This document shows, piece after piece, positions 8,973 to 30,291 of a DNA stretch of 38,073 nucleotides (position 1 is the first letter of the stretch; the number at the start of each line of letters is the position of its first letter). The position numbers and the translations under genes are program-made. Location of the stretch: the NCBI GenBank assembly GCA_018711525.1, contig DVIF01000023.1, forward strand, positions 1 to 38,073, given 5' to 3'. The DNA is from Candidatus Ornithospirochaeta stercorigallinarum (GTDB taxonomy: Bacteria > Spirochaetota > Spirochaetia > Sphaerochaetales > Sphaerochaetaceae). The notes beneath the pieces were generated by a model. That model was not told the origin of the DNA. It saw only the letters and a program-made list of their open reading frames with translations, and ran no database searches.

Positions 8973-9000
8973 TTGACACTTACATGTAAAACTGTAAAAA
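8973..9000 (+). promoter_or_regulatory. Promoter of aldehyde dehydrogenase gene, leaderless geometry
   Basis: A consensus TTGACA (8973-8978) is followed after 16 bases by TAAAAA (8995-9000). The ATG is only 7 bases further and no Shine-Dalgarno is present, so transcription should begin at or next to the A of the start codon. Confidence 0.65.
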
Positions 9001-9007
9001 TAAAACC

Positions 9008-10378
9008 ATGAGCTCTATAGCAGAAGTATACGAAAAGCAGAGGAATTTCTTTTACAGTGGGAAAAGCAAGGATATTGCATTCAGGAAAGAGAATCTGAAG
9101 AAATTCAGAAGCGCAATAATACGTTATGAATCGAAGATGAAGGATGCACTGCGACTTGATCTGGGCAAAAGCCCGACGGAAAGCTATGAGACGGAAATCG
9201 GCATAGTGCTTTCCGAGTTGAATTATACCCTCAGGCATTTTGAGAAATGGGCAAAGAAGAAGAGGGTCCACACTCCTCTTCTCCACTTTCCTTCGAAATC
9301 ATATATAATAACGGAACCGCTCGGGAACAGCCTGATCATGAGTCCCTGGAACTATCCGGTACAGCTTACGCTGGTCCCCCTGATCGGAGCCATAAGCTCA
9401 GGATGCACAGCAGTCGTCAAGCCTTCAAGATACAGCGGAGAGACATCACTGGTGCTGAAAGAGATGATAGATGAGATCTTCGATGAGGAGTACATCGCCC
9501 TCTTCCTTGGAGGACGTGATGTCAACACCGAACTGCTTTCCTACAAATGGGATTACATATTCTTCACGGGTAGCGTAAACGTAGGACGCATTGTTGCAGA
9601 AAAGGCGGCAAAGGACCTGACAAAGACGACACTTGAGCTGGGAGGGAAGAGCCCTGTCATCATCGATGAGAGTGCCGACCTCAAGAGGACAACTACAAGA
9701 CTGGCATTTGCTAAATTCATAAATGCAGGGCAGACATGCGTAGCCCCCGATTACTTCTTCGTACATAAGACGAAGAGCAAGGAGTTCCTCTCTTTAATGG
9801 TAAAGGCGATTGAAAAGGCCTATGGGGTCGACCAGATAGGAAACGATGAATTCGGGAAGATCATAAACCATCATCATTATCAAAGGCTCTGCTCCCTCAT
9901 AGAAGGTTCTCCTGTATATTATGGTGCCATGAAGGATGAGCAGAGAAACAAGATCTCGGCAACTATACTTTTCCCTGTGAAGGAAGACGAGCCTGTGATG
10001 CAGGAGGAGATCTTCGGACCGGTGATGGCTGTGATGGAATATGAGGATCTTGATGATGTTATTTCATTCATCCGCAACAGACCGCACCCTCTTGCTCTGT
10101 ACATTTTCAGCGAGAACAGGAAGAATATAGAGAGGATACACTCATCCCTGATTTTTGGAGGAGGATGTGTCAACGACGCCATAATGCACCTTGTCAGCCA
10201 CACTCTTCCTTTCGGAGGTGTCGGGGACTCAGGACTCGGCAGCTACCATGGAAAAAGGACGTTCATGGACTTCTCCCATGAGAAGGGGATACTGGACCAC
10301 GCCACATGGCTTGACATAACGCTCCGCTCCGCCCCGTTCGGCAGGAAGGAGAAGATCATAAAGACAATGCTTCACTAA
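9008..10378 (+). CDS. NAD(P)-dependent aldehyde dehydrogenase (ALDH3-like)
   Basis: Oxidises aldehydes to carboxylic acids with NAD(P)+. The 456-residue length and the motifs fit the shorter class 3/fatty-aldehyde-dehydrogenase branch. Visible marks are PWNYPVQLTLVPLIGAI (substrate and cofactor region), the nucleotide-binding stretch FFTGSVNVGRIVAEKAAKD, ELGGKSP with the general base Glu210, and AGQTCVAPDY with the catalytic Cys244. EEIFGPVMAVMEY and PFGGVGDSGLG follow near the C-terminus. It is the first gene of a likely unit with the exported protein (10393) and the CLC transporter (11310). It has a strong promoter but no leader. The true substrate is unknown. Confidence 0.92.
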   Translation: MSSIAEVYEKQRNFFYSGKSKDIAFRKENLKKFRSAIIRYESKMKDALRLDLGKSPTESYETEIGIVLSELNYTLRHFEKWAKKKRVHTPLLHFPSKSYIITEPLGNSLIMSPWNYPVQLTLVPLIGAISSGCTAVVKPSRYSGETSLVLKEMIDEIFDEEYIALFLGGRDVNTELLSYKWDYIFFTGSVNVGRIVAEKAAKDLTKTTLELGGKSPVIIDESADLKRTTTRLAFAKFINAGQTCVAPDYFFVHKTKSKEFLSLMVKAIEKAYGVDQIGNDEFGKIINHHHYQRLCSLIEGSPVYYGAMKDEQRNKISATILFPVKEDEPVMQEEIFGPVMAVMEYEDLDDVISFIRNRPHPLALYIFSENRKNIERIHSSLIFGGGCVNDAIMHLVSHTLPFGGVGDSGLGSYHGKRTFMDFSHEKGILDHATWLDITLRSAPFGRKEKIIKTMLH

Positions 10379-10392
10379 GGAGGAACAAGTAT

Positions 10393-11292
10393 ATGAAAAA
10401 ACTGCTTGCGCTCATTTCAGCCGCCCTTATTGCATCCACCCTCTCCGCTGCATTCAATCCTGAATACAGCGACTACCTCTTCTACACGCTTGAGGATTTC
10501 GATGCGGATGAGGAGTATCTTACAGCTGCAGAGGAAAGTGCCGCAACCGATGAGGAAAAAAGTGCCATCCTGTGGAGGCTGAGCCGCAACAGCCTCAGTC
10601 AGGGAGACCTGCTCGATGAGGATGATAAGGACGGAAGGTTTGCAATGTATGAGGAGTCTCAGGCATATGCCGAGGAGTCGATTTCACTCATGCCCAATGC
10701 AGATGCCTATCATTGGCTTAGCTCGGCAATCGGACGCTGGGGACAGACGAAAGGTGTGCTGGAATCTCTTTCCAGAGCAGGAGAGATGAGGGACTACGAG
10801 CTCAAGGCGATAGATGAGTACGGCTATGACCATACCGACGCCTGGTATGTCCTCGGCATCCTTTACAACCAGCTTCCGGGATGGCCCATCAGCTTTGGAA
10901 ACAAGAACTATGCAATAAGCTATATGAGAAGAAGCCTTGAGACGCAGATTGCGGGAAGAGGTCTTTTCCTTACACTCTACCAGGAGCTCTCGAACCAGCT
11001 CTATGACAGGAACTGGGATGCAAAGAAGAGAACGAGTGAAATCAACAAGATGCAGAAGGATTACGAGAAAAACGACGTCCTTTCCGAAAAGATGAAATAT
11101 TATGAAGGTGCAGAAGGCGCTTCAAAAGTTCCTTTCTACTCCACTGTCGCACTCTCCCAGATGTCCGACAGGCAGGAGGCGGCGATGCTTCTGATGTATG
11201 CCGATGCCGTCTTCAAGACAAAGGCGGACCCGCTTCCTTCCGAGGTGGCAAAGCACAGCGAGATCCTTGCACGTCTTGAAGAGATAACATAA
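10393..11292 (+). CDS. Exported TPR-like helical repeat protein
   Basis: A signal peptide (MKKLLALISAALIASTLSAA) ends near residue 20. The mature part is alpha-helical with TPR-like spacing. Examples are SAILWRLSRNSLSQGD, YEESQAYAEESISLMPNADAYHWLSSAIGRWG and TDAWYVLGILYNQLPG, resembling the TPR families seen in regulator-of-microtubule-dynamics-like bacterial proteins. A good AGGAGG Shine-Dalgarno precedes the ATG, and the gene begins 14 bases after the aldehyde dehydrogenase stop, so it is co-transcribed. Probably a periplasmic scaffold or interaction protein; no enzyme motif is seen. Confidence 0.7.
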   Translation: MKKLLALISAALIASTLSAAFNPEYSDYLFYTLEDFDADEEYLTAAEESAATDEEKSAILWRLSRNSLSQGDLLDEDDKDGRFAMYEESQAYAEESISLMPNADAYHWLSSAIGRWGQTKGVLESLSRAGEMRDYELKAIDEYGYDHTDAWYVLGILYNQLPGWPISFGNKNYAISYMRRSLETQIAGRGLFLTLYQELSNQLYDRNWDAKKRTSEINKMQKDYEKNDVLSEKMKYYEGAEGASKVPFYSTVALSQMSDRQEAAMLLMYADAVFKTKADPLPSEVAKHSEILARLEEIT

Positions 11293-11309
11293 TCTTATAC
11301 CGAGCAGAG

Positions 11310-12533
11310 ATGGAGACACATTTAAAGAACGCTTTGAGAGGGGTCCTGACAGGACTTCTCTCCGCCCCATTCATAACGCTTTTCTCAAATCTTGTAACCT
11401 GGGCGAACGGTTTCAACTCGGAGCACAGGTACCTTATCCTTTTACTGCCTGTAGGCTCATTGATAATCATTCTGACATACCATCTTCTAGGCTATCAGAG
11501 CAAGAAGATCACCAGTATGGCGATAAACCAGATACACTATGCAGAGGATGGGAACACATCGATGAAAGGTGAAGGCAGAATAAGCGTGAAGATGGCCGCT
11601 ACGAGTTTCTTCAACTCCGTCCTCTCTCACTTTCTTGGAGCCTCCGTCGGAAAGGAGGGCGTCGGAGTACAGATCGGTTTTTCCGCAGCATCATTTTTAG
11701 ACCGTGCAGAGGAACGTTTGTTAGGCTCCAGCAGGAGGGACTATTATCTGATGGGAGGAGCTGCATCGGCATTCTCCGCTCTTTTCGGAGCACCAGTTGC
11801 AGGAACGCTCTTCGGTCTTCATATCGCATCACCCCGTCTTGCACGCTTTGATGCACTGCTGCCTGCAGCATGCGCATCATTCTCTTCGTACTTCTTTTCC
11901 CAGCTGATAGGAATCCATGTGCTTTACACCCCCGGGATAAAACCTCTCGACCTGACAGTAGAAAATGCTTTAATCGTGCTGCTTTTCGCTGTGATAATAG
12001 GAATAGTCTGCTCTTTAAGCTGCAAGGCACTGGAATTCTTCAAGGAAAAACTGAACGACATCTATCCGGGGAACGAGGTCATCAAAGCTGTGATCCCGGC
12101 ATTCATCCTCACACTCTTTTCCGTACTCATATATCTAAGCAAAGGACATTTCCTTTACAACGGACTTTCGATAGACCTTATCAGCTACTCGATGTTCAGA
12201 GCTGCAGGTTTTGAGGATTTCCTTATAAAGCTCGTCATGGTGCTTCTTTCCCTCGCAGCAGGATTCCAGGGCGGAGAGGTCGTACCCCTTCTTGTCCTTG
12301 GAGCTACGTTCACATCCTCCCTTGCCTCAGTGCTCAATCTCGACACGGCGGCATTCTCAATCCTTGGTGCAATCGGCTTCCTTGCCGCAGGAACTAAACT
12401 TCCACTCGTGACTTTCGCCCTCGGTCTTGAGCTCTTCGGCTATTCAGAGCCATCGCTTCTCTTTCTCATGACATCTGTCGCTCTTATCTCATCAGGAAAG
12501 ACTGGAATTTATTCCCACCAGAGGATTTACTGA
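11310..12533 (+). CDS. CLC family anion channel/antiporter, possibly fluoride type
   Basis: Polytopic CLC protein of 407 residues. GASVGKEGVGVQIG carries the gating glutamate motif (G-x-E-G). AGFQGGEVVPLLVLGA corresponds to the second conserved CLC loop (GFxGGxxxP), and GAIGFLAAGTKLPL follows. The chloride-type GSGIP selectivity motif in the first half is missing; the equivalent stretch is INQIHYAEDG. This, with the short length, resembles the CLC-F branch (fluoride/proton antiporters), but I cannot confirm it by alignment. Only 17 bases separate it from the preceding gene, so no fluoride riboswitch could fit directly upstream. It is likely co-transcribed with the two genes before it. Confidence 0.82.
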   Translation: METHLKNALRGVLTGLLSAPFITLFSNLVTWANGFNSEHRYLILLLPVGSLIIILTYHLLGYQSKKITSMAINQIHYAEDGNTSMKGEGRISVKMAATSFFNSVLSHFLGASVGKEGVGVQIGFSAASFLDRAEERLLGSSRRDYYLMGGAASAFSALFGAPVAGTLFGLHIASPRLARFDALLPAACASFSSYFFSQLIGIHVLYTPGIKPLDLTVENALIVLLFAVIIGIVCSLSCKALEFFKEKLNDIYPGNEVIKAVIPAFILTLFSVLIYLSKGHFLYNGLSIDLISYSMFRAAGFEDFLIKLVMVLLSLAAGFQGGEVVPLLVLGATFTSSLASVLNLDTAAFSILGAIGFLAAGTKLPLVTFALGLELFGYSEPSLLFLMTSVALISSGKTGIYSHQRIY

Positions 12534-12584: not shown

Positions 12585-12613
12585 TTTACAAGATTCCCAT
12601 ATTCTGGTAATAT
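12585..12613 (+). promoter_or_regulatory. Promoter of EF-G gene, leaderless geometry
   Basis: TTTACA (12585-12590) lies 17 bases from TAATAT (12608-12613), which also has the TGn of an extended -10 (12605-12607). The ATG at 12621 is 7 bases downstream and there is no Shine-Dalgarno, so the EF-G message should be leaderless. Confidence 0.7.
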
Positions 12614-12620: not shown

Positions 12621-14648
12621 ATGGAAGAGAGCAGAATCCGCAACATCGGTATTATGGCTCATATCGATGCTGGCAAGACAACTACTACTGAAAGAATACT
12701 GTTTTACACAGGTGAGAACCACAGGATTGGCGAAGTCGACAACGGCGAAGCCACCATGGACTGGATGCAGCAGGAGCAGGACAGGGGTATAACCATCACC
12801 AGTGCTGCCACAACATGCTATTGGAAGGACCATCAGATAAACATCATAGACACTCCGGGCCATGTCGATTTCACAGCCGAAGTAGAACGCTCTCTGAGAG
12901 TCCTTGACGGGGCGGTTGCAGTCTTCTGCGCTGTAGGAGGGGTCGAACCACAGAGCGAGACGGTATGGAGGCAGGCAGATACATACAAGGTCCCTCGTCT
13001 TGCATTCATAAACAAGATGGACAGGCTTGGTGCTGATTTCTTCGCTGTACTTGATGACATGAGGAAGAAACTTGGGGCCAACCCTATTCCACTTTTCATA
13101 CCGATTGGAAGCGAAAACTCATTCTCTGCAATCATAGACCTTATAAAGATGAAGAGGATCACTTTCAGCGAGGAGGATCAGGGTTCTACGATGATTGAAT
13201 CCGAGATTCTTCCTGAAGAGATGGCACTCGCTGAAGAGTGGAGAGAGAAGCTGATCGACAGCGTCTCCTCCTTCTCCGATGAGATAACGGAGCTCTATTT
13301 CGAAGGTGAGCCGATTCCAGAGGATCTGATCTACTCTACCTTGAGAACGGCGACACTGGAGAGGAAGGCCATCCCGACTTTCGTCGGCTCTTCACTTAAG
13401 AACATCGGAGTACAGACACTGCTGGATGGAATAGTAAGACTGCTGCCCTCCCCTGTGGATGCCCCTGAGATCGAGGCCCATGATGCAAGAAACGGAAAGA
13501 GCGTGATGATCCATCACAGCACAAGCGGAAATCTCGAAGCCCTCATATTCAAGATCCAGGTCGACCCGCAGGCGGGGCCGATGTGCTTTGTGCGCGTCTA
13601 TTCCGGAGTGCTTAAGAAAGGCATCTCCATATACAATGCGACGAAAGGCAAGAAGGAAAGGGTCAACAGGCTTCTCAGGATGCATGCAGACAGAAGCGAA
13701 GAACTCAGTGAGATAAAAGCAGGGGACATCGGAGTCATAATCGGCTTTAAAAATGCACAGACCGGAGATACACTTGCCGTAGAATCCTCACCATATCTTC
13801 TCGAGAACATGGTGTTCCCGAAACCTGTCATTTCGATTGCAATCGAACCGAAGACCACTGATGCCCAGGAGAAGCTGAAAAAGGCCCTCGAGGTCTTCGC
13901 CATGGAAGATCCTACCTTCACATACAAGGATGACAGTGAGACAGGACAGCTCGTCATCTCAGGAATGGGAGAGCTCCATCTCGATGTTCTTGTTACAAGG
14001 ATAACAAAAGAGATGAAGATCGATGCCAGGGTCGGAAATCCGCAGGTAAGCTACAGGGAATCGATAAAAGGAGAAAAGACATTAAGCGAGGAGTTCTCAA
14101 AGCAGATTGCAGGAAAGGAGAACTATGCGGGGCTTACCATCTCTGTTAAACCTAATGAGAGGGGCAAGGGTAATGAATACCTCGTCTCTGCGAAGACAAG
14201 GGATATTCCGCAAGAGATTCTCGAAGCCGTCAGGATGGGAATCGAAGGTTCTTTCTCCAGCGGAATAAAATTCGGCTATGAGACAACAGATATCATAGCG
14301 GATGTAAAAGAGATAAAGTATGATGAGCTCACATCCACGCCGTTTGCATTCACAAGCTGTGCGGCCATGGCCTTCGACAAGGCATGCCAGGAGGCGGGTG
14401 CGATACTCATGGAGCCTATAATGAAGGTCCAGGTCGTAAGCCCGAGCGAGTATATAGGAGATGTGATAAGCTCCATCACGCAGAGGAACGGCATAGTGGA
14501 GAGCATGGAGAGCAAGACTGGTGGAGATGTCGTCACAGCCCAGGTTCCGCTTGAGAAGATGTTCGGATACTCGACCATCCTACGCTCATCCACGCAGGGA
14601 AGAGGCAGCTTCTCGATGGAGTTCAGCCACTACCAAGAAAAATTATGA
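12621..14648 (+). CDS. fusA: Elongation factor G (spirochaete type)
   Basis: Ribosomal translocation GTPase, or its ribosome-recycling paralogue. 675 residues with the full EF-G plan. G1 is AHIDAGKT (residues 13-20). G3 is DTPGH with the catalytic His81. G4 is NKMD from residue 131. Domain II, domain III with MGELHLDVL, domain IV and domain V follow. EF-G domain II/IV motifs and the tail MEFSHYQ are intact. Spirochaetes are known to carry two divided-function factors (spdEFG1 for translocation, spdEFG2 for recycling). From sequence alone I cannot say which this is, and a main fusA could exist elsewhere. Its stop codon lies within a perfect inverted repeat (14640-14660) in front of the XRE regulator gene. 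Confidence 0.9.
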
Positions 14649-17281: not shown

Positions 17282-17988
17282 CATTTCTTCTCAACCCAGA
17301 GCTCCCTGACCTCATGCTCTTTTTCCTTTCCCTTCGCTTCGAACTTCGTCTCCGGACGCCACTGCATATGGGGAGCAAATCCATCATATGGATTTAAAAG
17401 CTTCTCGTTTCCATTGAACAGGGAAAGGACCTCGTCCGCATACTCGACCCAGTCGGTGACGAAATATATATATCCCCCCTTCCTTAGCTTTGAGACAAGC
17501 AGATCGATGAAAGCTGGATTCATCAGCCTTCTCTTATGATGCTTCTTCTTCATCCATGGATCGGGGAAGAAGATATGGAAGCCATCGACGCTATCATCAT
17601 CAATCAGGTGGGAAAGGACGTCGACGGCGTTGAATCTCATGACCTTGAGGTTCTTCACCCCCTCCTCCCTTATCCTCTTGAGAAGCTTGACGACACCGTC
17701 GAGATAGACCTCAAGTCCGAGGAAATTGCAATCACTTCTGCTCTTCGCTATCTCTATGGTCGCAGTCCCCATTCCAAATCCTATTTCAATGATGAATGGC
17801 TTCGACGAGCCGAACAGGGACTCTGAATTCAGCCTCGAGCCTTCCTCATAGAAGATGAGACTATCCTTGGAATCTTCTATGACACGCTCACCCTTATCAT
17901 CAAGGACATTGCTTCTGAGCACATAGCTTTTGATACTCCTCTCCTTCCCTTGCCTAAGTTCTATCTTGAATATCCTCTCATCTATCAT
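17281..17988 (-). CDS. trmB: tRNA (guanine-N7)-methyltransferase
   Basis: Methylates guanine-46 in the variable loop of tRNAs, using S-adenosylmethionine. The SAM-binding motif is IIEIGFGMGTATIEIA. The hallmark FPDPWMKKKHHKRRLMN loop of TrmB and the following YFVTDWVEYADEVLSLF are present. 235 residues is the normal size. The start ATG overlaps the mfd stop (ATGA), with AGGAG upstream inside mfd, so translation is coupled to mfd. Pairing of trmB with mfd looks like operon economy rather than shared function. Confidence 0.93.
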   Translation of the reverse strand: MIDERIFKIELRQGKERSIKSYVLRSNVLDDKGERVIEDSKDSLIFYEEGSRLNSESLFGSSKPFIIEIGFGMGTATIEIAKSRSDCNFLGLEVYLDGVVKLLKRIREEGVKNLKVMRFNAVDVLSHLIDDDSVDGFHIFFPDPWMKKKHHKRRLMNPAFIDLLVSKLRKGGYIYFVTDWVEYADEVLSLFNGNEKLLNPYDGFAPHMQWRPETKFEAKGKEKEHEVRELWVEKK

Positions 17989-20900
17989 TTCAGTCTCCTA
18001 AGCTGTTCAAGGATGAAAAGCGCCTTGTCCTTGAGACTGACACTTGAACTCTTCATCCTTATGTAGTTCATCCTTTTCGGATCAAGATTGACCTTTCCTC
18101 CGCTGAGCTGTATCAGGTTCACAAGCTTTCCCGGATCTATTGCACTGACCTTGCTCAGCTCGAACTCGATCACCCCGTTCTTCTCCTTGATGTTGTAGAT
18201 GTCGAGGGAGGCTGCAAGAATCTTTATCTCTGCTATGCATAGAAGGTTGTCAACATCCTCAGGAATCGGTCCAAACCTGTCCTCTATCTCCGCCCTCAGG
18301 CTCTCAAGCTGCTCGGAGCTTTTCACGGAGGCTATCTTCTTATAGATTTCAAACTTCTCGACACTGTTTGAGATGTAGCTGTCGGGGATGAAGCCCGAAT
18401 AATCAAGCTCAAGAAGGACCTCCCTTTTCTTTCCATCCTCACTGCCCCTGATGCGGTCTATCTCCTCATCAAGGAGCTTCATATACATATCCAGGCCGAC
18501 TGCCTCGAGGTGGCCGGACTGCTCCCTTCCCAGGATGTTTCCAGCCCCTCTTATCTCCATATCCTTCATTGCGATCTTAAAGCCTGAACCCAGTGCCGTG
18601 TTCTCACTCATCACACGCAGACGTTTCAAGGCATCATCATTGAGGCTTGAGCGGTCCTTGTAGAAAAGATAACAGTAGGCCTTCTTATCGGAACGGCCGA
18701 CCCTTCCTCTGAGCTGATAGAGCTGAGAGAGCCCTAGACGCTCCGCTCTGTCTATGATGATGGTATTCACATTCGGGATATCTATTCCGTTCTCTATTAT
18801 CGTCGTCGATACGAGTATCTGCACTCCTTCATATATGAAACGGTGCATGACATCCTCAAGGTCCTCCGCCTCCATCTGACCATGGGCGTATTCTACAATC
18901 GCCTCAGGGATCTCACGCCTGATTTCCATGACGATCTGTTCAAGGTCCTCGATCCTGTTGTGGAGGAAGAAGACCTGGCCTCCCCTTTCAAGCTCATTGC
19001 GCATGGCTTTTACAGCCTTATCAAAATCAAACTCCTCTATATATGTCTCGATTGGAAGACGCTCCCTAGGTGCGGTAGTAAGAAGGCTCATGTCCCTTAC
19101 CTTCAAAAGGGACATGTAGAGGGTCCGCGGAATCGGTGTCGCACTCAGGGTAAGGCAGTCTATGTTCGTCTTGAGCTGCTTGATCTTCTCCTTATCCTTG
19201 ACACCGAACCTCTGCTCCTCATCTACTATCAGAAGACCAAGGTCCTTGAATTCAATCTTGTTCAGGATCTTGTGGGTACCGAAAAGGACATCCACATCCC
19301 CCACCTTAAGCCGTGAGAGAATCTTCTTCTGATTCTTTGAAGGGACAAAACGTGTCAGGAGAGATGCATTCACAGGGAACTGTCCCAGCCTCTCCTTGAA
19401 ATTGTTGTAATGCTGCTCTGCCAGGATCACGGTAGGAGCAAGGAATGCAACCTGCTTGCCAGAGAGGACCGCCTTGAATGCCGCACGGAAAGCCAATTCG
19501 GTCTTGCCATAGCCTACATCACCACAGACGAGGCGGTCCATGACCTTTTTGGTCTCCATGTCCTTCTTAATCTCCTCAAGGCACTTTATCTGGTCGGGTG
19601 TCTCTGAAAAAGGAAATGACGCCTCGAATGCAAGCTGCCAGTCGTTGTCACTTGAGAATGGGAAACCTTCGCTGTTCTCCCTTTGTGCATAAAGCCTCAC
19701 AAGCTCCTTCGCAAGCTCCTCTGCACTTTTAAGCGCCCGCTCCTTCTTCTTCGACCATGTTGAGGAGCCAAGCTTCTCAAGTTTTGGAAGCCTCTGGTCG
19801 CTTCCTATGTATTTCTGAACGAGGTTCGCCTGCTCGATAGGAACGTATATGAACTCCTTGTCTGCATACTCGATCTTTATGTAATCCCTTTCAGTGTAGA
19901 ACCCCTTGACCCTGTCGATTTTCACAAACCGTCCGATTCCGTAGTTCACATGTACGACATAGTCGCCCTCCTTCAGGTCGACAAAGCTATCAAGGGGGGA
20001 TGAGGAAGTGTCCACAAGCTTTTCCGCCCTGTGTTTCTTCCTTCCGAATATCTCATTGTCAAGAACCACAAGCAGAGATTCGTCATCTACTACGAACCCT
20101 GAAGAGATGTCCTTTACGATTATATTGACATTGAAATCCTTTAAAACCGAGTCCAGCCTGTCCTTCTGCACAGATGATGGGGCAAGCACATAGATGCTCC
20201 ACCCTTCTTTGAGCAGTGTCGAGATGTCATCCTTGAAATATGTGACATTGCCGAAATAAGAGCGGCTGGGAGAGATGGAGAAGTGGTGGTAATCATTCTT
20301 TTTTATATCATATAAAGTGATGGACGGCCTCTCAGCTGCTATGAATGAGCTCCAGGCGAACAACATCTGGGAAGGACTCTTGACCTCCTGATGCGCCCTG
20401 TACGCCTCCTTGTAACGGGCCTCCGCCTCCTTCAAAAGGGAGGAGTAGCTTGTTTCAAGACGCTCGGCACCTATGAATGCAAAATAATCGTCTTTCCTGA
20501 TGAATGATTCGAACGTGGTATAGCTCTCTCCTGCCGACGCATTTAAAAGGGAGATGTCCACCTTGCCAAGCTCTTTGACGGTCTTCTGGCTCAAAGCATC
20601 GAAAAAGCGTATCTGGGTAATCTCATCCCACTCTGTGTTTATCCTTACAGGGTTCTCCTCTCCGAACGGATAGACATCAATCATCTCCCCCCTGATGGTA
20701 TAAGTCCCCTCCTCATAGCAGGAATTGACCCGCTCATAACCGGAAGCTGCGAGCTTGGATGCAATCTCTTCAGGACTTTTCACATCATGCAGGCAAAGGC
20801 GCATCGTCATCTGATCCATCATCGCACGGGAAAGGACCGGGGAGATGAAAGCACGCAGAGAGGTCACGATGATACCGCACTTCATGCCATCAAGCTCCAT

Positions 20901-21218
20901 AAGGGCCTTCTTCGCTTCATTGTCAGAAGATGAAAGGCCGTATGAATAAAGCATCTTGCCGCTGGATGGATAATAAAGTGTGCTGATATTATCGACATCG
21001 GCAAGATCAAGGGAGAGAGCCTTCGCACTCTCTTCTGTAGCGCAGATGGCAAAAAGACGGGAGCCCCATTTCTGACTAAAGAGCTTTAGAAGCCTCGATA
21101 TGGGGTAATTCGATATCCCGTCCGCCTTGAGAGGGGCTTTGGGATCCTTTATGAATGCTTTATAAGCACTGCTCTTTCTGATATAATCTGAGCAGATTCC
21201 GTCTAGAGTTGTTTCCAC
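17985..21218 (-). CDS. mfd: Transcription-repair coupling factor
   Basis: DNA translocase that removes RNA polymerase stalled at damage and recruits UvrA. 1077 residues. The order is: UvrB-like N-terminal domains (about 1-330), an RNA-polymerase-interacting CarD-like domain (LKEGDYVVHVNYGIGRF, about 410-480), the RecG-like motor, then a C-terminal TRCF domain. The motor shows Walker A GDVGYGKTE (about 566), DEEQ box VDEEQRFG, motif III SATPIPRTLYM, and motif VI region LYQLRGRVGRSDKKAYCY. The start is GTG at 21218, 8 bases after a -10 box, so probably leaderless. First gene of an mfd-trmB operon. Confidence 0.95.
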   Translation of the reverse strand: METTLDGICSDYIRKSSAYKAFIKDPKAPLKADGISNYPISRLLKLFSQKWGSRLFAICATEESAKALSLDLADVDNISTLYYPSSGKMLYSYGLSSSDNEAKKALMELDGMKCGIIVTSLRAFISPVLSRAMMDQMTMRLCLHDVKSPEEIASKLAASGYERVNSCYEEGTYTIRGEMIDVYPFGEENPVRINTEWDEITQIRFFDALSQKTVKELGKVDISLLNASAGESYTTFESFIRKDDYFAFIGAERLETSYSSLLKEAEARYKEAYRAHQEVKSPSQMLFAWSSFIAAERPSITLYDIKKNDYHHFSISPSRSYFGNVTYFKDDISTLLKEGWSIYVLAPSSVQKDRLDSVLKDFNVNIIVKDISSGFVVDDESLLVVLDNEIFGRKKHRAEKLVDTSSSPLDSFVDLKEGDYVVHVNYGIGRFVKIDRVKGFYTERDYIKIEYADKEFIYVPIEQANLVQKYIGSDQRLPKLEKLGSSTWSKKKERALKSAEELAKELVRLYAQRENSEGFPFSSDNDWQLAFEASFPFSETPDQIKCLEEIKKDMETKKVMDRLVCGDVGYGKTELAFRAAFKAVLSGKQVAFLAPTVILAEQHYNNFKERLGQFPVNASLLTRFVPSKNQKKILSRLKVGDVDVLFGTHKILNKIEFKDLGLLIVDEEQRFGVKDKEKIKQLKTNIDCLTLSATPIPRTLYMSLLKVRDMSLLTTAPRERLPIETYIEEFDFDKAVKAMRNELERGGQVFFLHNRIEDLEQIVMEIRREIPEAIVEYAHGQMEAEDLEDVMHRFIYEGVQILVSTTIIENGIDIPNVNTIIIDRAERLGLSQLYQLRGRVGRSDKKAYCYLFYKDRSSLNDDALKRLRVMSENTALGSGFKIAMKDMEIRGAGNILGREQSGHLEAVGLDMYMKLLDEEIDRIRGSEDGKKREVLLELDYSGFIPDSYISNSVEKFEIYKKIASVKSSEQLESLRAEIEDRFGPIPEDVDNLLCIAEIKILAASLDIYNIKEKNGVIEFELSKVSAIDPGKLVNLIQLSGGKVNLDPKRMNYIRMKSSSVSLKDKALFILEQLRRLK

Positions 21219-21226
21219 TAGGCCAA

Positions 21227-21255
21227 AATATAATTAAAAAGGTAAAAAATGACAA
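21227..21255 (-). promoter_or_regulatory. mfd promoter, leaderless geometry
   Basis: On the minus strand TTGTCA (21255-21250) and TATATT (21232-21227) are 17 bases apart, and the GTG start is 8 bases further on. The -35 box lies inside the first codons of the divergent phosphatase gene, and the -10 box overlaps that gene's own -10 box. Confidence 0.6.
21229..21234 (+). promoter_or_regulatory. -10 box for the phosphatase gene
   Basis: A consensus TATAAT, 14 bases before the ATG at 21249. No good -35 is seen (best guesses near 21204-21214). It shares bases with the mfd -10 box, so the two promoters cannot easily be open at the same time. Confidence 0.5.
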
Positions 21256-22061
21256 CAAATAGTTTGGATTTGAATAAACTTGAAAAGCTCTATACCTTCA
21301 TCATAGATTTGACAAGATACGCCAGAGCACGGCAGAAGAAAGTGAAGAGGCACTTCAAAAGCGACGGCTCGGTCCTTACAGAAATAGATTTATACATCTC
21401 GAATGAAATATCGAAGAAGATAAAGGAGCTCTTTCCAGAGGCCAACGTAATAAGCGAAGAGGAGGAAAGCCCCTTCGATGGAGAGAAACCCTTTACATTC
21501 ATCCTCGACCCTATAGATGGCACCGATGTCTTTTCCCAGGGAATGCCGAGCTACGCTACGGCCCTGGGAATCCTAGACAGGGAAAGGAATCCCGTCGGTG
21601 CGGTGATATCAGCACCACGCTTCGGAATCGGAGAAGAGGAGCTGAACATACGCCTCTTTCCAGGATCCGAGTGCCTGATCAACGGGGAGCCCCTCGTAAT
21701 GGAGGCCAAAGGGGATGAGATAAAACAGATAATGATGACCAGCCAGGGGATCTCCAAGTATGATTTCTCCGCATACGACGGTAAGATAAGGACAATCGGC
21801 TCCTCAATCCTTCACATCCTAAGCCCCGTGATATTCCCTCAGATCGATGCATCAATCACGCAAGCATGCTATGCGTGGGACATCTCAGCCAGTCATGCAA
21901 TCCTGAAGCATTATTCGATGGATCTCTTCTACAATGACGGTACAAGGGTTGAATATACAGACCAGATGCTGGTTCAAAGGAAGAAATGCAAAAGCACTAT
22001 CTATGCCTCGACAGAGGAAAAAGCCCTCCGCCTTATGAGACTGGTCCCATTCATGCCGTAG
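21249..22061 (+). CDS. Inositol monophosphatase family protein
   Basis: Mg2+-dependent sugar-phosphate or nucleotide phosphatase of the IMPase/CysQ superfamily. The metal-binding motifs are complete: VISEEEESPF (near residue 73), LDPIDGTDVFSQGMPSYATALGI (near residue 94) and WDISASHAIL (near residue 212). 270 residues is the normal length. Substrates in this family range from inositol phosphate to fructose-1,6-bisphosphate and PAP, and cannot be told apart here. It is divergent from mfd, and its 3' end overlaps the convergent ACT-domain gene by 11 bp. Confidence 0.88.
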   Translation: MTTNSLDLNKLEKLYTFIIDLTRYARARQKKVKRHFKSDGSVLTEIDLYISNEISKKIKELFPEANVISEEEESPFDGEKPFTFILDPIDGTDVFSQGMPSYATALGILDRERNPVGAVISAPRFGIGEEELNIRLFPGSECLINGEPLVMEAKGDEIKQIMMTSQGISKYDFSAYDGKIRTIGSSILHILSPVIFPQIDASITQACYAWDISASHAILKHYSMDLFYNDGTRVEYTDQMLVQRKKCKSTIYASTEEKALRLMRLVPFMP

Positions 22062-22716
22062 TGTCCTCTAAGAATGTCTGAAGCACTTCGTATGCCTTCA
22101 TGCTCTGCGTCCGCTCAACGACGAAAGTCAGCACGTTCATCGTACTTACGATTTCGATTACATTTATGTTCTCGAAAGCAAGCTTCCTGACAGCCATATA
22201 TACAAGACCGGGTGTCTCTACGAAATTATCTGAGAATGCGATATTGATTGCAACAAGATCTGTAAATTCATTGAGAACGGTCTCTTCCTTTATAAGGTCC
22301 TTCAATATGTTCGTATATTTGTCACTTATCGATATGCTCATCTCAAAAGTGCCGAGGCTTACGTTTAAGAAATCCCCCTTCTCAAGCTGAACGTTCTCAT
22401 AAAGCCTGTTGAGAATCCTCATGGACTCGTCGTTTCTCTGGAGATTCACATCGAAGATGTTCGTCTTCATGCTCAGTTCATAGTGCATCCTGATCTTCGG
22501 TTTCTCAAGCATCTCCTTCTTAAGCTCATCAGCATACCGCCTTAAGGCCATGACAACGGCAGGAGCGTTGACACTCTTTCCCAGACGCTCTTCCACTCTC
22601 GGCTTTATCTCATTTGCAAGATTTGAAAAGCTCACAATGTCCCTGATGAGCATCTCCGAAAGAAACGGACTCTTATCTATGATTTCCTTTACTTCCTGAC
22701 TTATTGTACCTGCCAT
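22051..22716 (-). CDS. ACT-domain protein, possible amino-acid-responsive regulator
   Basis: 221 residues. The N-terminal half (about 1-85) is helical and may include a winged-helix-like segment (IDKSPFLSEMLIRDIVSFSNLANEI, then VNAPAVVMALRRYADEL). The C-terminal third (about 138-215) reads as an ACT domain: DLVAINIAFSDNFVETPGLVYMAVRKLAFENINVIEIVSTMNVLTFVVE. That is the ligand-binding fold of amino-acid-sensing proteins such as aspartokinase. A DNA-binding head with an ACT sensor would suggest a regulator, but no specific family is recognised. It has a near-perfect promoter with no leader and no Shine-Dalgarno. It is divergent from the unknown gene at 22797. Confidence 0.7.
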   Translation of the reverse strand: MAGTISQEVKEIIDKSPFLSEMLIRDIVSFSNLANEIKPRVEERLGKSVNAPAVVMALRRYADELKKEMLEKPKIRMHYELSMKTNIFDVNLQRNDESMRILNRLYENVQLEKGDFLNVSLGTFEMSISISDKYTNILKDLIKEETVLNEFTDLVAINIAFSDNFVETPGLVYMAVRKLAFENINVIEIVSTMNVLTFVVERTQSMKAYEVLQTFLEDTTA

Positions 22717-22722
22717 GTTAGC

Positions 22723-22751
22723 ATAATAACAGTTTGTTAATTTCCTGTCAA
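22723..22751 (-). promoter_or_regulatory. Promoter of ACT-domain gene, leaderless geometry
   Basis: On the minus strand TTGACA (22751-22746), a 17-base spacer, TATTAT (22728-22723), then six bases to the ATG. This is the cleanest promoter in the window and would place the transcription start on the start codon. Confidence 0.75.
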
Positions 22752-22760
22752 AAGAATTTC

Positions 22761-22790
22761 TTGATTCTCATCTTCCCAATAATGTAGACT
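22761..22790 (+). promoter_or_regulatory. Promoter of unknown basic-protein gene, leaderless geometry
   Basis: TTGATT (22761-22766) is 18 bases from TAGACT (22785-22790), and six bases then lead to the ATG at 22797. No Shine-Dalgarno is present. Confidence 0.5.
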
Positions 22791-22796
22791 ATAACA

Positions 22797-23930
22797 ATGT
22801 TGAAAGAAAACATAATCCGAAAATATGAAAAAGGAAGTATTCTACTCATTGATTCAGAAGATGATGAAATAAGAAAACTGACTGAAATCATAGCGGTATC
22901 CGATATTTCAATTCTCAGACACTATATTTTGAAATCCATAGACTTTGTCTGTGTCAAGATAATTCAGTTACATCAATATTACTCCATACCATTGAAAGAG
23001 ATAAGAGCATATGCAGCTGACGTGGTCTCAGGCAGGGACAATGAGATGATGCATAATGTGATTCTTTCATACCTGTACCATTGCACCTGCATGACAAATG
23101 ACAGATATGCAAAATCACTGCTCCTGTGCCTTCACAGCCATATAGCATCGTTATATCAGGAACACCGTTATGTCAGGGCGCTTTTATATGAATACTCTTC
23201 AGCCTTCCATTCGTTGGGAGGAAGGAAGCAGATCGAGCAGGCCTACAATAGGATTGAAGAATCTCTTCTCCTCTCCATTGAGGACCTCAAGCTCTCTCTC
23301 GTCTCTGAGAACAGGAGAAGCAGTGCAGGATGCAGGATGATTAATTCCGAATTCATAAGGATCTACAATGACAAAAGGAAGGACGGGAGGAAGAGAGAGG
23401 TTGACATCAAGGCTGAAAAAAGACGGAAGATGGTGAAGACTCTCGCCATGACAAAGCGCAGGGAAAGATGCATGAGGGTCAAAGTTATCAAGGTCATGCC
23501 TCAGGTGATTAAACTGAAGGAGAGTCTCTCCAGACTGGAGAAAGCACACCTGAGGAGGTACTATCTTGACCTGTTTGAAGATGTAAGGTGCGACCTGACA
23601 GGGAAAGATAGACGCTATGAGAGGCTTTTCATCTCCATAGCAGCATGCTACAGGAACGTGGAGAAGAAAAAGGAGTCGAAACGAAAACTGAGATTCGTCA
23701 TGGCACAGCTTACAGGCTATGCCATGAAAAGAGGACCTGAGGAACTGAAAAAAGCGAAGATAGTGCCTCCTGCATTATTTGAATCCATCGATGCAGATGT
23801 GAAGGAAGACGAGATGAAACTCATATTCGATACTGCATCCAATAATGAAGAAAATGCGAAGATGATTCTCACCCGTGAGCTGGAGAGAATAGAAAGGACT
23901 AGGAGAGAAGCTTCATATCCCCGTCTTTGA
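22797..23930 (+). CDS. Hypothetical basic helical protein
   Basis: 377 residues with no recognised domain. It has no signal peptide or membrane segment. It is predicted to be almost wholly alpha-helical and is rich in K and R, most strongly at residues about 190-260 (KRKDGRKREVDIKAEKRRK and after) and again near 280-310. The N-terminal 170 residues are less basic, with hydrophobic helices and several cysteines and histidines (residues 98-115). The charge suggests nucleic-acid or ribosome binding, which is inference only. Promoter and start codon are clear, codon use is like its neighbours, and the 3' end overlaps the convergent membrane-protein gene by 32 bp. Confidence 0.65.
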   Translation: MLKENIIRKYEKGSILLIDSEDDEIRKLTEIIAVSDISILRHYILKSIDFVCVKIIQLHQYYSIPLKEIRAYAADVVSGRDNEMMHNVILSYLYHCTCMTNDRYAKSLLLCLHSHIASLYQEHRYVRALLYEYSSAFHSLGGRKQIEQAYNRIEESLLLSIEDLKLSLVSENRRSSAGCRMINSEFIRIYNDKRKDGRKREVDIKAEKRRKMVKTLAMTKRRERCMRVKVIKVMPQVIKLKESLSRLEKAHLRRYYLDLFEDVRCDLTGKDRRYERLFISIAACYRNVEKKKESKRKLRFVMAQLTGYAMKRGPEELKKAKIVPPALFESIDADVKEDEMKLIFDTASNNEENAKMILTRELERIERTRREASYPRL

Positions 23931-25053: not shown

Positions 25054-25081
25054 TTGCAAAAAGGCATAAATAAGGTAAAAT
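25054..25081 (+). promoter_or_regulatory. nrdR promoter, leaderless geometry
   Basis: TTGCAA (25054-25059), 16 bases, TAAAAT (25076-25081), then 8 bases to ATG 25090 (2 bases to ATG 25084). No Shine-Dalgarno. An open frame continues upstream from a TTG at 25054, but that codon is part of the -35 box. Confidence 0.6.
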
Positions 25082-25089: not shown

Positions 25090-25563
25090 ATGAAATGTCC
25101 TCGCTGTGGTTGTCTCTTAGACAAGGTAATAGAATCCCGTCCAGGGAAGGACGGCATGAGCATCAGGCGTAGAAGGGAATGCACCTCCTGCGGCTGCCGT
25201 TTCACCAGTTACGAGAGGGTCGAACTCAAACCGATCATCGTCATAAAGAAGAACGGAAAGCATCAGAGTTTCGATATCAACAAGGTGGAGCATGGAATCA
25301 GGGTGTGCACCGACAAGATAAACATAGACCCGGATGCCCTTCAAAGGACACTTATCAACATCGAGAACAGGATCACCGAACTTGCAGGGGCCAAAAGGAC
25401 AGTCACAAGTGCAATGATCGGAGAGGAGACACTCAAGGAGCTCTATAAGCTCAACCCTGTCGCATATGTCCGGTTCGCAGCAGTATACAGGGCTTTCGAC
25501 GATGTCGGTCAGTTCATAAGCGAGATAGAGAAAATCGCAAAGGAGAGTTCCAGCGAGAGCTGA
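25090..25563 (+). CDS. nrdR: Transcriptional repressor NrdR
   Basis: Represses ribonucleotide reductase genes when dATP is high. 157 residues, the family length. It begins with a zinc ribbon (MKCPRCG ... CTSCGCRFTSYER, cysteines at residues 3, 6 and in the later C-x-x-C). An ATP-cone domain follows (about 45-135), with KPIIVIKKNGKHQSFDINKV and GEETLKELYKLNPVAYVRFAAVYRAF. ATG 25090 is chosen because NrdR proteins start directly at the zinc ribbon and because the -10 box is 8 bases upstream. ATG 25084 would add two residues. No NrdR box is obvious nearby. Confidence 0.95.
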   Translation: MKCPRCGCLLDKVIESRPGKDGMSIRRRRECTSCGCRFTSYERVELKPIIVIKKNGKHQSFDINKVEHGIRVCTDKINIDPDALQRTLINIENRITELAGAKRTVTSAMIGEETLKELYKLNPVAYVRFAAVYRAFDDVGQFISEIEKIAKESSSES

Positions 25564-25570: not shown

Positions 25571-25599
25571 TTCACCTAATGTTTCTTTTGGTCTATCAT
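25571..25599 (+). promoter_or_regulatory. Promoter of second MATE gene, near-leaderless
   Basis: TTCACC (25571-25576) and TATCAT (25594-25599) are 17 bases apart, and the ATG at 25608 is 8 bases further, without a Shine-Dalgarno. Read-through from nrdR (44 bases upstream) is also possible. Confidence 0.5.
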
Positions 25600-25607: not shown

Positions 25608-26945
25608 ATGGACAATGAGTATCTGATCAAAGAGAGGCCGATAAAAGCCATCACTGTTTTTGCAATCCCTCTTATGCTGGCAGCTTTCTTCCAGCAGTTC
25701 TACACCCTTGCCGATTCGGCCATAGTCGCACGCTTCGTCTCGGAGAAGGCCCTTGCCGCAATAGGAGCCTCCTATGCCCTTACAAATGTATTCATATCCA
25801 TTGCAATCGGTGCAGGTACGGGCTCAGGAGTCATCATTTCGCGCTACTATGGGGCCCATGACTACCACATGACCAAGAACAGTACGAAGATAAGCCTGAT
25901 CTCATTTCTCGCATTGAGCATCATGCTGGCACTCATCGGCCTGATATTCTCCGAAGACATCCTCGTTCTTCTGAACACACCATATGACATCCTCAGTGAT
26001 GCGAAAGCCTATCTGGACATCTATTTCATGGGGCTCCCATTCCTTTTCTGCTATAACGCACTCTCATCGTGCTATAACGCACTGGGCAGAAGCAGATACC
26101 CCCTGTTCTTCCTGATATTCTCATCGATTCTGAACATAATACTCGACCTTGTCGCCGTAATAGTCTTTGACATGGGTCTTGTAGGTGCAGCATGGGCGAC
26201 CCTTGTCAGCCAGGCGCTTTCGGCACTGCTTTCATTCATATTGCTCGTAAGGCTCCTGAAAAAACTCGATTCATCTGCTTTCGGACCCTTCTCATTCTCC
26301 GAGCTCAAGAAGATGAGTGCCATCGCACTACCCTCAATCCTTCAGCAGTCAACCGTCTCCATCGGCATGATGCTCGTGCAGGGGGTCATAAACAGTTTCG
26401 GCTCCGCCATCCTTGCAGGATACAGTGCGGCGATGCGCCTTGAGAGCATTGCAACCGTACCTTTCACCAGCCTCGGAAATGCCGCCTCATCCTATGCCGC
26501 CCAGAACATCGGAGCAAAGAAAACAGAGCGCATAAAATCCGGTTATAATGCGATGGTCGTACTCACGGTGATCTTCTCACTGCTGATCTTCATAACCTTC
26601 AACCTATTCAAGCCCTTGTTGATATCTATTTTCATCGAAGAGAACTCAATCGAGGCATATGAGACTGCCAACCAGTTCTTTGTATACATAACTCCAGTGT
26701 TCGTATTCATAGGATTGAAGATGATTACAGATGGAATATTGAAGGCATCCGGGAATGTCGTCCCGTTCACCATTGCAAACATCGTGAATCTTTCAATCAG
26801 GGTCGCCCTATCCTACCTCCTCGCACCTGTCATAGGTTTCTCAATCTGCTACATGGCGGTTCCCCTTGGATGGATTGCAAACTTCATGATATCTGGAAGC
26901 ATCTACTTCTCCGGACGATGGAAGAGGAAGCTGGGGATGGACTGA
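25608..26945 (+). CDS. MATE family multidrug/metabolite exporter
   Basis: 445-residue MATE antiporter with about 12 membrane segments. It opens with AITVFAIPLMLAAFFQQFYTLADSAIVARFVSEKALAAIGASYALT. The halves repeat from about residue 240 (ALPSILQQSTVSIGMMLVQGVINSFGSAILAGYSAAMRLE). It is paralogous to the gene at 393, sharing the FQQFY and GAxYA-type motifs, but clearly diverged. Monocistronic or weakly linked to nrdR. It converges on adenine deaminase with 19 bases between the stop codons. The substrate is unknown. Confidence 0.9.
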   Translation: MDNEYLIKERPIKAITVFAIPLMLAAFFQQFYTLADSAIVARFVSEKALAAIGASYALTNVFISIAIGAGTGSGVIISRYYGAHDYHMTKNSTKISLISFLALSIMLALIGLIFSEDILVLLNTPYDILSDAKAYLDIYFMGLPFLFCYNALSSCYNALGRSRYPLFFLIFSSILNIILDLVAVIVFDMGLVGAAWATLVSQALSALLSFILLVRLLKKLDSSAFGPFSFSELKKMSAIALPSILQQSTVSIGMMLVQGVINSFGSAILAGYSAAMRLESIATVPFTSLGNAASSYAAQNIGAKKTERIKSGYNAMVVLTVIFSLLIFITFNLFKPLLISIFIEENSIEAYETANQFFVYITPVFVFIGLKMITDGILKASGNVVPFTIANIVNLSIRVALSYLLAPVIGFSICYMAVPLGWIANFMISGSIYFSGRWKRKLGMD

Positions 26946-26953: not shown

Positions 26954-26964
26954 ATGCTCAAGGA

Positions 26965-28701: not shown

Positions 28702-28737
28702 ATAAGCCTCCTTTTGGCGTAAACGGCCTGTTCTCAT

Positions 28738-28753: not shown

Positions 28754-28766
28754 TTTCAATGATTAT

Positions 28767-28776: not shown

Positions 28777-29055
28777 TTATTTATATGTTTTGCATAAGTA
28801 ATCACATTAATTCTTTCTAATTTTTATATAATTTTAATATATTTTTACTATTATTTATATATAGTTTTACATATAATTTTCAGTAAAATAAATTTATTTA
28901 ATATTTTATTGTAAATACTTCTAATTAATAACAATAGATTATTCAATATGATTGAAATGTTTAAGCTATCATTCTTAATATATTTACTTGATATATTTAT
29001 TTTAATTATAAGTTTCCATATATATCGTTGTGATTTCAATATCAAAATGATTTCA
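28777..29055. other. Extremely AT-rich non-coding island
   Basis: By hand count about 14% G+C over 28777-29040, against roughly 45-50% in the genes on both sides. It consists of runs and mixtures of TTTA, TATA and AATT. The only reading frame of note (minus, ending at 28851) translates into I/L/K/N-rich low-complexity sequence, with no start signal or domain. Inverted repeat arms ATCGTTG/CAACGAT (29024-29030/29078-29084) and two TGATTTCA copies (29031-29038/29048-29055) lie at the right edge. It separates ade from the dGTPase gene and could act as an upstream AT element, a bent region or a remnant of inserted DNA. Confidence 0.7.
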
Positions 29056-29065
29056 TGGCAAAACT
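29056..29065 (+). repeat. Direct repeat copy 2, right border of AT-rich island
   Basis: TGGCAAAACT, identical to 28767-28776, 289 bases apart start to start. Confidence 0.6.
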
Positions 29066-29118
29066 CAGGATTTACACCAACGATTTGAGTTGCAAGGAGT
29101 ATGAATGATGAGATGCCA

Positions 29119-30279
29119 TCAGTACGGAGCATCGAACCATTTGCCTGTCTGACTCATCTCTATCTCATCATTGAGGTGCTCCGGCTTGAGGATTTCATTC
29201 GCACAGTCAAGGCAGAAGTTGTCTGTCATTCCCGCGACATAGTCGATGATCATCCTCTTGTCACTTCCTTCTTTTTCGATATAAAGCATCTGCATCTCCC
29301 TGATATGATTGTAGAATCCTGCAGCAAGCATGTTCTTCTCCGAAAGATATCCTTTCTCATCTAGGGCGTATGATGAGTAGATTTCCTCCAGGTAGTTCAC
29401 AATCAGGTTTATCAGCCTTGTAAAATATCGTGTATAGCCATTGAGGATCTCAGAACGGTATATGTATTTGTAGTTGAATTCACTGAAAGCACTTACAGCT
29501 TCAAAGATGTCATCTGAGAAACCGATTCCCCTCTCAGCATCAGCCCCTTCAATCAGGTCGTTCACAAGAGTGTTGATTATGCTGCTGTTGCTCTCCCCGA
29601 GCCTCTCCCTGACAATTTTAGGCAGCTCAAGACCTTTAAGGATTCCAAGGCGCTTTGCATCCTCGTAATCACGGCCAAGGTATGCAATGGAGTCTGAAAA
29701 CCGGACTACGGCACCTTCATATGTCGCAGGAATCAGCCCCTTTCTCGACTTGATTGCATCAAGATCCTTGATTTCATATGTCGGAACAATCCTCTTTCTC
29801 AGGTCCTCCCCATTGTGGGAGACTATCCCGTCCCTTACAGCATATGTGAGATTGAGGCCTCTGCCGTTGTTGGAAAGGAACTCAACGACTCTGAGGCTGT
29901 TGACTTCGTGCTCGAATGCACCAAGCCCTCTTTCAAGTGAAAGCTTCGAGATGATTCTCTCCCCGACATGTCCGAACGGGGTGTGTCCTAGGTCATGCCC
30001 CATGCCTATTGCCCATGCGAGCTCTGTATCGAGGCCTAGTGGTCTGCAGATTGTGGAAGCTATCGAAGCGACATGAAGAACATGCTCCATCCTCGTACAT
30101 ATATGGTCGTTGCTGGGAGAAAAGAAGACCTGGGTCTTATGCTTCAGTCTTCTGAATGCAGATGAATGGATTATTGCAGTCGTGTCACGGTAGTAGGCAC
30201 CTCTGATATCTTCCTGACGCTCCCTGATGCGTGCCTTAAGCTTATCAGAGAGGGATTTTTCAATCTTTAAACCTTCCAT
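29119..30279 (-). CDS. dGTP triphosphohydrolase-like HD-domain protein
   Basis: Deoxynucleotide triphosphohydrolase family (dNTP -> deoxynucleoside + triphosphate), important for dNTP balance. 386 residues. The HD-domain residues are visible: RRLKHKTQVF near the start, then TRMEHVLHVASIA with the first His, GMGHDLGHTPFGHVGE with the HD pair, and HEVNSLRVVEFL after it. Start ATG 30279 is preferred: a -10-like TATCAT is six bases upstream. An upstream in-frame start at 30327 would add 16 cysteine-rich residues that look non-native. Divergent from the membrane-protein gene at 30318. Confidence 0.9.
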   Translation of the reverse strand: MEGLKIEKSLSDKLKARIRERQEDIRGAYYRDTTAIIHSSAFRRLKHKTQVFFSPSNDHICTRMEHVLHVASIASTICRPLGLDTELAWAIGMGHDLGHTPFGHVGERIISKLSLERGLGAFEHEVNSLRVVEFLSNNGRGLNLTYAVRDGIVSHNGEDLRKRIVPTYEIKDLDAIKSRKGLIPATYEGAVVRFSDSIAYLGRDYEDAKRLGILKGLELPKIVRERLGESNSSIINTLVNDLIEGADAERGIGFSDDIFEAVSAFSEFNYKYIYRSEILNGYTRYFTRLINLIVNYLEEIYSSYALDEKGYLSEKNMLAAGFYNHIREMQMLYIEKEGSDKRMIIDYVAGMTDNFCLDCANEILKPEHLNDEIEMSQTGKWFDAPY

Positions 30280-30285
30280 GGTATT

Positions 30286-30291
30286 ATGATA
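30286..30291 (-). promoter_or_regulatory. -10 box of the dGTPase gene, leaderless geometry
   Basis: TATCAT on the minus strand (30291-30286), six bases before the ATG, with no Shine-Dalgarno. The -35 region is poor (TTTTGC or TTTTTG about 16-17 bases upstream). Confidence 0.4.

Follow-up and report, generated by a model that had tools for sequence, protein, structure and literature searches.

Leaderless mRNAs are read by ribosomes with initiator tRNA recognizing the 5′-terminal AUG, and RNA polymerase starts about 6–7 bases downstream of the -10 hexamer. Such mRNA is well established, and Spirochaetes are no exception. Of the 18 Spirochaetes genomes in the study of Zheng et al. 2011 (PMC3160421), 6 have predicted leaderless genes, at a mean of 3.9% of genes (1.8–6.9), and the sign used there for TA-led genes, a TANNNT box some 12 bases ahead of the start codon, is the one found here. 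In Leptospira interrogans (PMC5243855), differential RNA sequencing (dRNA-seq) mapped about 440 mRNAs with an untranslated region of <10 nt, half of them <2 nt. About 60% of genes are leaderless in Deinococcus deserti according to PMC9031893, and a gut Cappable-seq study (PMC4782308) gives leaderless start sites at 10% in Akkermansia muciniphila and 15% in Bifidobacterium pseudolongum; its four named species include no spirochaete. We analyzed a stretch of 38,073 nucleotides of Candidatus Ornithospirochaeta stercorigallinarum (C3:1-38073; “the window” is this whole stretch). Here we predict sigma70-type promoters flush with start codons, including that of an EF-G gene, and what is new is a lineage rich in such genes. 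L. interrogans is likewise a spirochaete in which many primary start sites coincide with the start codon or lie close to it, mapped there and predicted here. The L. interrogans study (PMC5243855) found no common promoter motif beyond sigma54, whereas the window lineage has a plain TTG/TATAAT-type promoter.

The window is a contig of a 92-contig metagenome-assembled genome (MAG) of 1.93 Mb (1,929,630 bases; 82.9% complete) with a GC content of 46.5% and AT-rich spacers before first-of-unit genes. Among the best 80 of 270 relatives, the window EF-G protein is closest to uncultured Spirochaetaceae/Spirochaetales MAGs (92% downward); the next matches include Candidatus Ornithospirochaeta and Sphaerochaetaceae records, and Treponema records stand at 53–58%. 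A sequence-only reading of the window had proposed eight first-of-unit genes with a -10 box 6–8 bases before the start codon and no Shine-Dalgarno (SD) site. All eight -10 hexamers and the seven -35 hexamers that it gave are exact, and its spacers, start codons (one GTG), and gaps (the bases between -10 hexamer and start codon) are correct. The promoters and genes are as follows.

8973..9000, + strand: promoter of 9008, -35 TTGACA at 8973-8978, spacer 16, -10 TAAAAA at 8995-9000, 7 bases to ATG (sequence check)
9008..10378, + strand: aldehyde dehydrogenase family gene, predicted leaderless (Pfam PF00171; promoter geometry)
12585..12613, + strand: promoter of 12621, TTTACA-17-TAATAT, 7 bases to ATG (sequence check; orthologues)
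12621..14648, + strand: EF-G gene, predicted leaderless (Pfam EF-G domains)
21227..21255, - strand: mfd promoter, TTGTCA at 21250-21255, spacer 17, TATATT at 21227-21232, 8 bases to GTG (sequence check; orthologues)
17985..21218, - strand: mfd (transcription-repair coupling factor), predicted leaderless from GTG (Pfam TRCF, CarD_TRCF_RID)
22723..22751, - strand: promoter of 22716, TTGACA-17-TATTAT, 6 bases to ATG (sequence check; not conserved)
22051..22716, - strand: DUF7523-like protein gene, predicted leaderless here but not in nearest relatives (Pfam PF24367; orthologues)
22761..22790, + strand: promoter of 22797, TTGATT-18-TAGACT, 6 bases to ATG (sequence check; orthologues)
22797..23930, + strand: gene without a Pfam match at E 0.001, predicted leaderless (promoter geometry)
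25054..25081, + strand: nrdR promoter, TTGCAA-16-TAAAAT, 8 bases to ATG (sequence check; orthologues)
25090..25563, + strand: nrdR, predicted leaderless (Pfam PF22811 residues 1-42, profile 1-42 of 42)
25571..25599, + strand: possible promoter of 25608, TTCACC-17-TATCAT, 8 bases to ATG, within the 44 bases after nrdR (sequence check)
25608..26945, + strand: MATE transporter gene, possibly leaderless (Pfam MatE)
30286..30291, - strand: -10 TATCAT of 30279, 6 bases to ATG, without a clear -35 (sequence check; same-genus loci)
29119..30279, - strand: HD-domain phosphohydrolase gene, predicted leaderless (Pfam HD, HD_assoc)

Seven of the eight -10 hexamers fit TANNNT, the exception being TAAAAA of 9008. 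At 30279, where no -35 had been claimed, the hexamer at spacer 17 is TTTTTG, not a -35. TANNNT is present at gap 6–8 in 10 of the 18 first-of-unit genes of the window (393, 12621, 21218, 22716, 22797, 24933, 25090, 25608, 30279, and 37414), and 5000 Markov shuffles gave 1.66 ± 1.18, none reaching 10. The 18 are the analyst’s judgement; 25608 is debatable, lying 44 bases after nrdR, and the starts of 8853, 30318, and 37414 are uncertain. The window alone is convincing, yet it is richer in near-start boxes than the rest of the genome.

For the genome, 60 stretches were added to the window (929,363 of 1,929,630 bases, 48%; 787 genes). Genes were called by codon score, with starts picked blind to the upstream sequence, and the sample contains 356 first-of-unit, 243 internal, and 133 other genes. 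Dinucleotide-based shuffles and neighboring positions served as controls, which allow for the AT-rich spacers. Before the 356 first-of-unit genes, TANNNT occurs 34 and 32 times at gaps 6 and 7 (66 together; shuffles 18.6 ± 4.3), and the background at gaps 16–45 has a mean of 9.4 per position. Internal genes are flat, with 5 + 2 = 7 in 243 at these gaps (shuffles 6.6). An SD 4-mer is found in 2 of the 66 first genes with a TANNNT box near the start (hereafter TA-led) vs 150 of the 290 other first genes (p 2e-15), and in 183 of the 243 internal genes. The genome thus has the marks of leaderless TA-led genes: a sharply preferred TANNNT distance, near absence of SD, and restriction to first-of-unit genes. 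These counts bear out the sequence-only reading as to promoters flush with start codons without SD, EF-G among them, and as to SD sites inside operons; the genome-wide -10 peak, which it had proposed to compare with shuffled sequence, did not vanish.

The peak at gaps 6–7 persists with the longest ATG frame (17 and 18 in a smaller sample of 199 genes) and with all plausible starts allowed (98 of 400 genes; background 39.1 ± 6.4). At the predicted start site ATG ranks first among the 64 triplets, with 59 vs 22 at a shifted gap (929-kb sample, any TTG -35, spacer 16–18). We rejected the idea that an initiator effect, start sites preferring YA, produced the pattern counts; in our own sample the other ANN triplets went only from 17.0 to 19.9. 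We scanned ten TA-led proteins, chosen among the 26 of the 66 that had the top coding scores, and six match named families above threshold (lon, leuS, ligA, a PTS enzyme I family protein, trkA, and xseA), so the leaderless mode is not confined to odd genes.

The promoters have a sigma70-type architecture, with a TTG-type -35 about 17 bases before a TATAAT-type -10. A -35 TTG at spacer 17 is present in 20 of the 66 TA-led genes; no other spacer from 8 to 26 has it in more than 4. T is found at -23 relative to the hexamer in 76% of them, T three bases before the hexamer in 53%, and G two bases before it in 41%. Spacer-17 TTG is rarer for TANNNT boxes at gaps 13–30, but its presence in 22 of 180 suggests that some of these are real promoters of leadered genes. 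An expectation-maximization (EM) mixture begun flat over gaps 0–25 put weights of 0.32 on gap 6 and 0.42 on gap 7 (74% together), with a TATAAT-like matrix. At position -1, 57 of the 66 TA-led genes have a pyrimidine, vs 150 of 290 other first genes (p 8e-8) and 108 of 243 internal genes; this is the sole feature bearing on a 5′ end at the start codon.

Orthologous loci were compared using the single best tblastn match per locus and the start nearest the expected place, with ATG preferred. Loci were dropped before counting if the match began after residue 15 (16 in the second locus set) or if no start codon lay near the expected place. The two nrdR locus sets overlap, and L014 and L242 have identical upstream sequence. 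Near-start promoters persist although the upstream DNA has otherwise diverged to near random identity: in start-anchored, ungapped comparisons the mean pairwise identity over -48..-31 is 0.31 for EF-G, 0.31 for mfd, and 0.35 for nrdR, with shuffled values of 0.27, 0.29, and 0.28. Among 52 Sphaerochaetaceae-side EF-G loci, 49 have TANNNT at gap 5–9 (21 at 6/7) and one has an SD 4-mer; among Treponema and other loci, 26 of 27 have an SD 4-mer. The mfd orthologues have TANNNT at gap 5–9 in 22 of 25 (16 at gap 6/7), SD in 0 of 25, and a GTG start in 20 of 25. For nrdR the count is 14 of 16 loci, and 22 of 24 in the second, overlapping set.

The HD gene 30279 has TANNNT at gap 5–9 in 21 of 29 same-genus loci, its own included, and an SD 4-mer in 5. 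For 9008, TTGACA and TGTAAAAAT or close variants are retained in the nearest orthologues; 16 of 35 orthologues have a strict TANNNT at gap 6/7 and none of the 35 has SD. All three orthologues found for 22797 have TANNNT at gap 6/7. No 25608 orthologue was matched in the 4-kb loci, which are short and belong to the second locus set only. As controls, the operon-internal gene 10393 has TANNNT in 0 of 18 and SD in 16 of 18 of the same loci. The second EF-G gene (EF-G2, 15163-17247), SD-led in the window, has SD in 40 of 52 loci, the other 12 having TANNNT at gap 5–9 and no SD 4-mer. At 11310, TANNNT occurs in 7 of 41, about the expectation from a background of 0.033 per position times five gaps. 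Gene 30832 has an SD 4-mer in the window and in its near relatives L234 and L235, and TANNNT at gap 5–9, mostly 8–9, in 20 of 25 loci.

Four relatives were compared at the gene level: G064 (same genus), G012 (genus g2), and G084 and G069 (same family). The peak at gaps 6–7 recurs in G064 (38 in 161; shuffles 6.1) and G012 (24 in 164; shuffles 8.0), and Escherichia coli has no such peak (5 in 144; shuffles 5.1). In the triplet test, ATG is commonest in G064 (29 vs 8) and G069 (24 vs 11); E. coli gave 1 and 1 in 300 kb. We also counted a whole-genome pattern, TTGA-N19-TANNNT-N5/6-Y-ATG, against the same pattern with N10/11. The window genome has 35 vs 6 control matches. The order sample contains 124 genomes of at least 80% completeness, all of family f1 (which we infer to be Sphaerochaetaceae), in 22 genera, with 43 genomes in the window’s own genus g1. 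It gives 3606 vs 704, about 5-fold pooled, and each of the 124 genomes is above control, as are all 22 genera (weakly in g3, 15 vs 9). Four further families of the class, represented by eight genomes, give 300 vs 63 (8 of 8 above control), and other classes of the phylum give 1428 vs 770, 1.85-fold pooled, with 48 of 51 genomes above control. The highest counts in the phylum sample are those of G141 (87 vs 12) and G150 (75 vs 19), of family f3 in the same class. D. deserti plasmid 1, with 1 and 0 matches, is uninformative.

The leaderless habit is common to the order and class at varying strength, and it is strong in g1 and g2. A limit to these two genera was considered and is weakened by the presence of the pattern in all genera, including G084 (44 vs 12) and G069 (18 vs 5) despite their small gene-level excess; the gene-level gap to these two remains, the excess being higher in the window genome (p 0.001 and p 0.0004). 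Loss of bS21 as the cause of the trait was rejected, as bS21 is present in 120 of the 124 genomes of the order.

The share of leaderless genes depends on the measure. Measured against flanking positions, the excess amounts to 51.5 of the 356 first-of-unit genes (14.5%), and a start-robust count gives 16.3%. Held-out matrices give 6.4, 10.0, and 11.1% at background rates of 2, 5, and 10%; earlier -10 matrices, trained without an SD class, apparently drifted onto SD motifs, giving high scores to internal genes and E. coli, and were redone with a third class. The excess and held-out figures are floors because real -10 boxes may miss TANNNT and the background includes real promoters. EM shares of 37.6% and 41% in two runs are an overfitted ceiling (about 40%), above a floor of 6–16% of first-of-unit genes. 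The sequence-only reading had put leaderless starts at about half of transcription units; this is too high for the genome, the window being richer (10 of 18). Nor is a dominant mode in the lineage supported as stated; 43% of first-of-unit genes have an SD 4-mer.

Elsewhere the excess is 17.3% in G064, 12.4% in G012, 1.3% in G084, 0.3% in G069, and -1.3% in E. coli. The same EM mixture gives 36, 34, 22, 12, and 5% in that order. Treponema loci have an excess of 6.5% and an EM share of 34%, but they all come from one neighborhood (around EF-G), so this 6.5% does not sample a whole genome. D. deserti shares the geometry, and the same program run on 250 kb of its plasmid 1 gives an excess of 13.0% vs 14.5% here (EM share 27%); it is of another phylum and GC-rich, with no -1 pyrimidine seen, and cruder plasmid gene calls make the comparison rough. 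As a share of all classified genes the excess here is 51.5 of 732, or 7% (strict hexamer, first-of-unit genes alone), obtained by a different method from the percentages of Zheng et al. (PMC3160421) and in a lineage known from uncultured gut MAGs, although overlap with cultured Sphaerochaeta is possible.

The observed order of -35, 17 bases, -10, 6–7 bases, and start codon is accompanied by restriction to first-of-unit genes, near-absent SD, the -1 pyrimidine, and conservation in relatives. Given the distance at which RNA polymerase starts, a gap of 6–7 would put the 5′ end at the start codon. Ribosomes carrying initiator tRNA would read the 5′-terminal AUG of such mRNAs, and downstream genes in the same operons would use SD initiation. 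The mRNA of many genes, EF-G included, very probably begins at the start codon; we give this a probability of roughly 0.87.

Several observations weigh against this reading. We infer every 5′ end from sequence, and for any gene a second promoter farther upstream may give a leadered mRNA. The held-out matrix scoring yields just the 6–11% given above, and the gene-level excess is small in G084 and G069, which belong to the same family as the window genome. In the triplet test ATG does not rank first in G012 or G084, where it reaches only 18 (from 11) and 24 (from 15), respectively. The D. deserti control shows no -1 pyrimidine preference (7 of 14). A gap of 9 rather than 6–7, present in many EF-G orthologues, may mean a leader of 2–3 bases. 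The promoter of 22716 is not conserved: TANNNT at gap 5–9 is found in 4 of 22 loci and an SD 4-mer in 12 of 22, including the nearest, L001-L004. The predicted leaderless form of this gene looks recent in the window genome.

The alternative that survives best, although we consider it improbable, is that the leaders are very short (1–5 bases), with transcription starting slightly upstream of the AUG. Gaps of 8 or more at mfd, nrdR, and 25608, at the box given for 393 in the sequence-only reading, and gap 9 in the EF-G orthologues fit this, but the peak is at 6–7, and position -1 is a pyrimidine in 57 of 66. A leader so short has no room for an SD site, and the initiation mode would be much alike.

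It is much less likely that starts were called too far upstream and that translation begins at a later in-frame SD codon behind an ordinary leader. The start choice is ambiguous in the gene caller, which shifted 393, 22797, and 25090 downstream, and a later in-frame ATG with some SD 4-mer exists in 9 of 66 TA-led genes, about as in SD-led genes (15 of 150). However, codons 2–21 score equally in TA-led and SD-led genes (0.149 vs 0.135, p 0.62), and a later in-frame start with a strong SD within 35 codons exists in 2 of 66 vs 8 of 150. The NrdR zinc ribbon is matched from residue 1, which fixes that start. In EF-G 12621, the AHIDAGKT stretch, which we take to be the G1 motif, starts at residue 13, and initiation any later would truncate the GTPase domain. 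Chance occurrence of -10-like hexamers in the AT-rich spacers is a negligible explanation. The hexamer does appear about 9 times per position in the rest of the 356 upstreams, but the shuffles and the footprints contradict this reading, with the peak on two positions alone and absent in internal genes, E. coli, and shuffles.

If transcripts begin at the start codons as we predict, leaderless initiation might be the main alternative to SD for first-of-unit genes in g1 and g2 (about 40%). EF-G might have moved from SD to leaderless on the Sphaerochaetales branch (a putative direction) and kept that mode ever since, which would link production of a core translation factor to leaderless initiation. 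We offer this extension tentatively and regard it as doubtful.

The sequence-only reading knew of no description of such starts as a dominant mode in this lineage. As a claim of novelty this goes too far, leaderless genes being already known in Spirochaetes (PMC3160421, PMC5243855). Our search of the available literature found no account of leaderless genes in Sphaerochaetales or these gut MAGs, nor of how common they are, and among titles matching “leaderless” and “Treponema” none was on start-site mapping. Two surveys (PMC5397173, PMC10783764) list Spirochaetes, and no statement on leaderless genes in Sphaerochaetales was seen in the parts available. The lineage adds a Gram-negative gut group of moderate GC to the bacteria rich in leaderless mRNA. 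Programs that expect SD may misplace starts in spirochaete MAGs. Orthologue pairs that differ in mode (EF-G in Sphaerochaetales vs Treponema; 22716 in close relatives) make the gain or loss of leaders, an old question in the evolution of initiation, directly testable.

The divergent pairs 22716-22797 and 21218-21249 share 80 and 30 bases of spacer, respectively. Both genes of the first pair look leaderless. By eye, the nearest 22716 orthologues have TTAACA...TGTTA-type repeats, which look like an operator, followed by SD and a leader of short length, which seems to be missing from the window copy. In the second pair, the mfd -35 (21250-21255) falls within the first codons of the opposite gene. 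A box at 28737 (TATAAT, 4 bases, ATG) was rejected as a false lead, 28701 with AAAGGAGG being the likely start. On the + strand near the HD gene promoter, codons before 30363 look conserved in relatives by eye, and the gene there probably starts at 30318 or before, overlapping that promoter.

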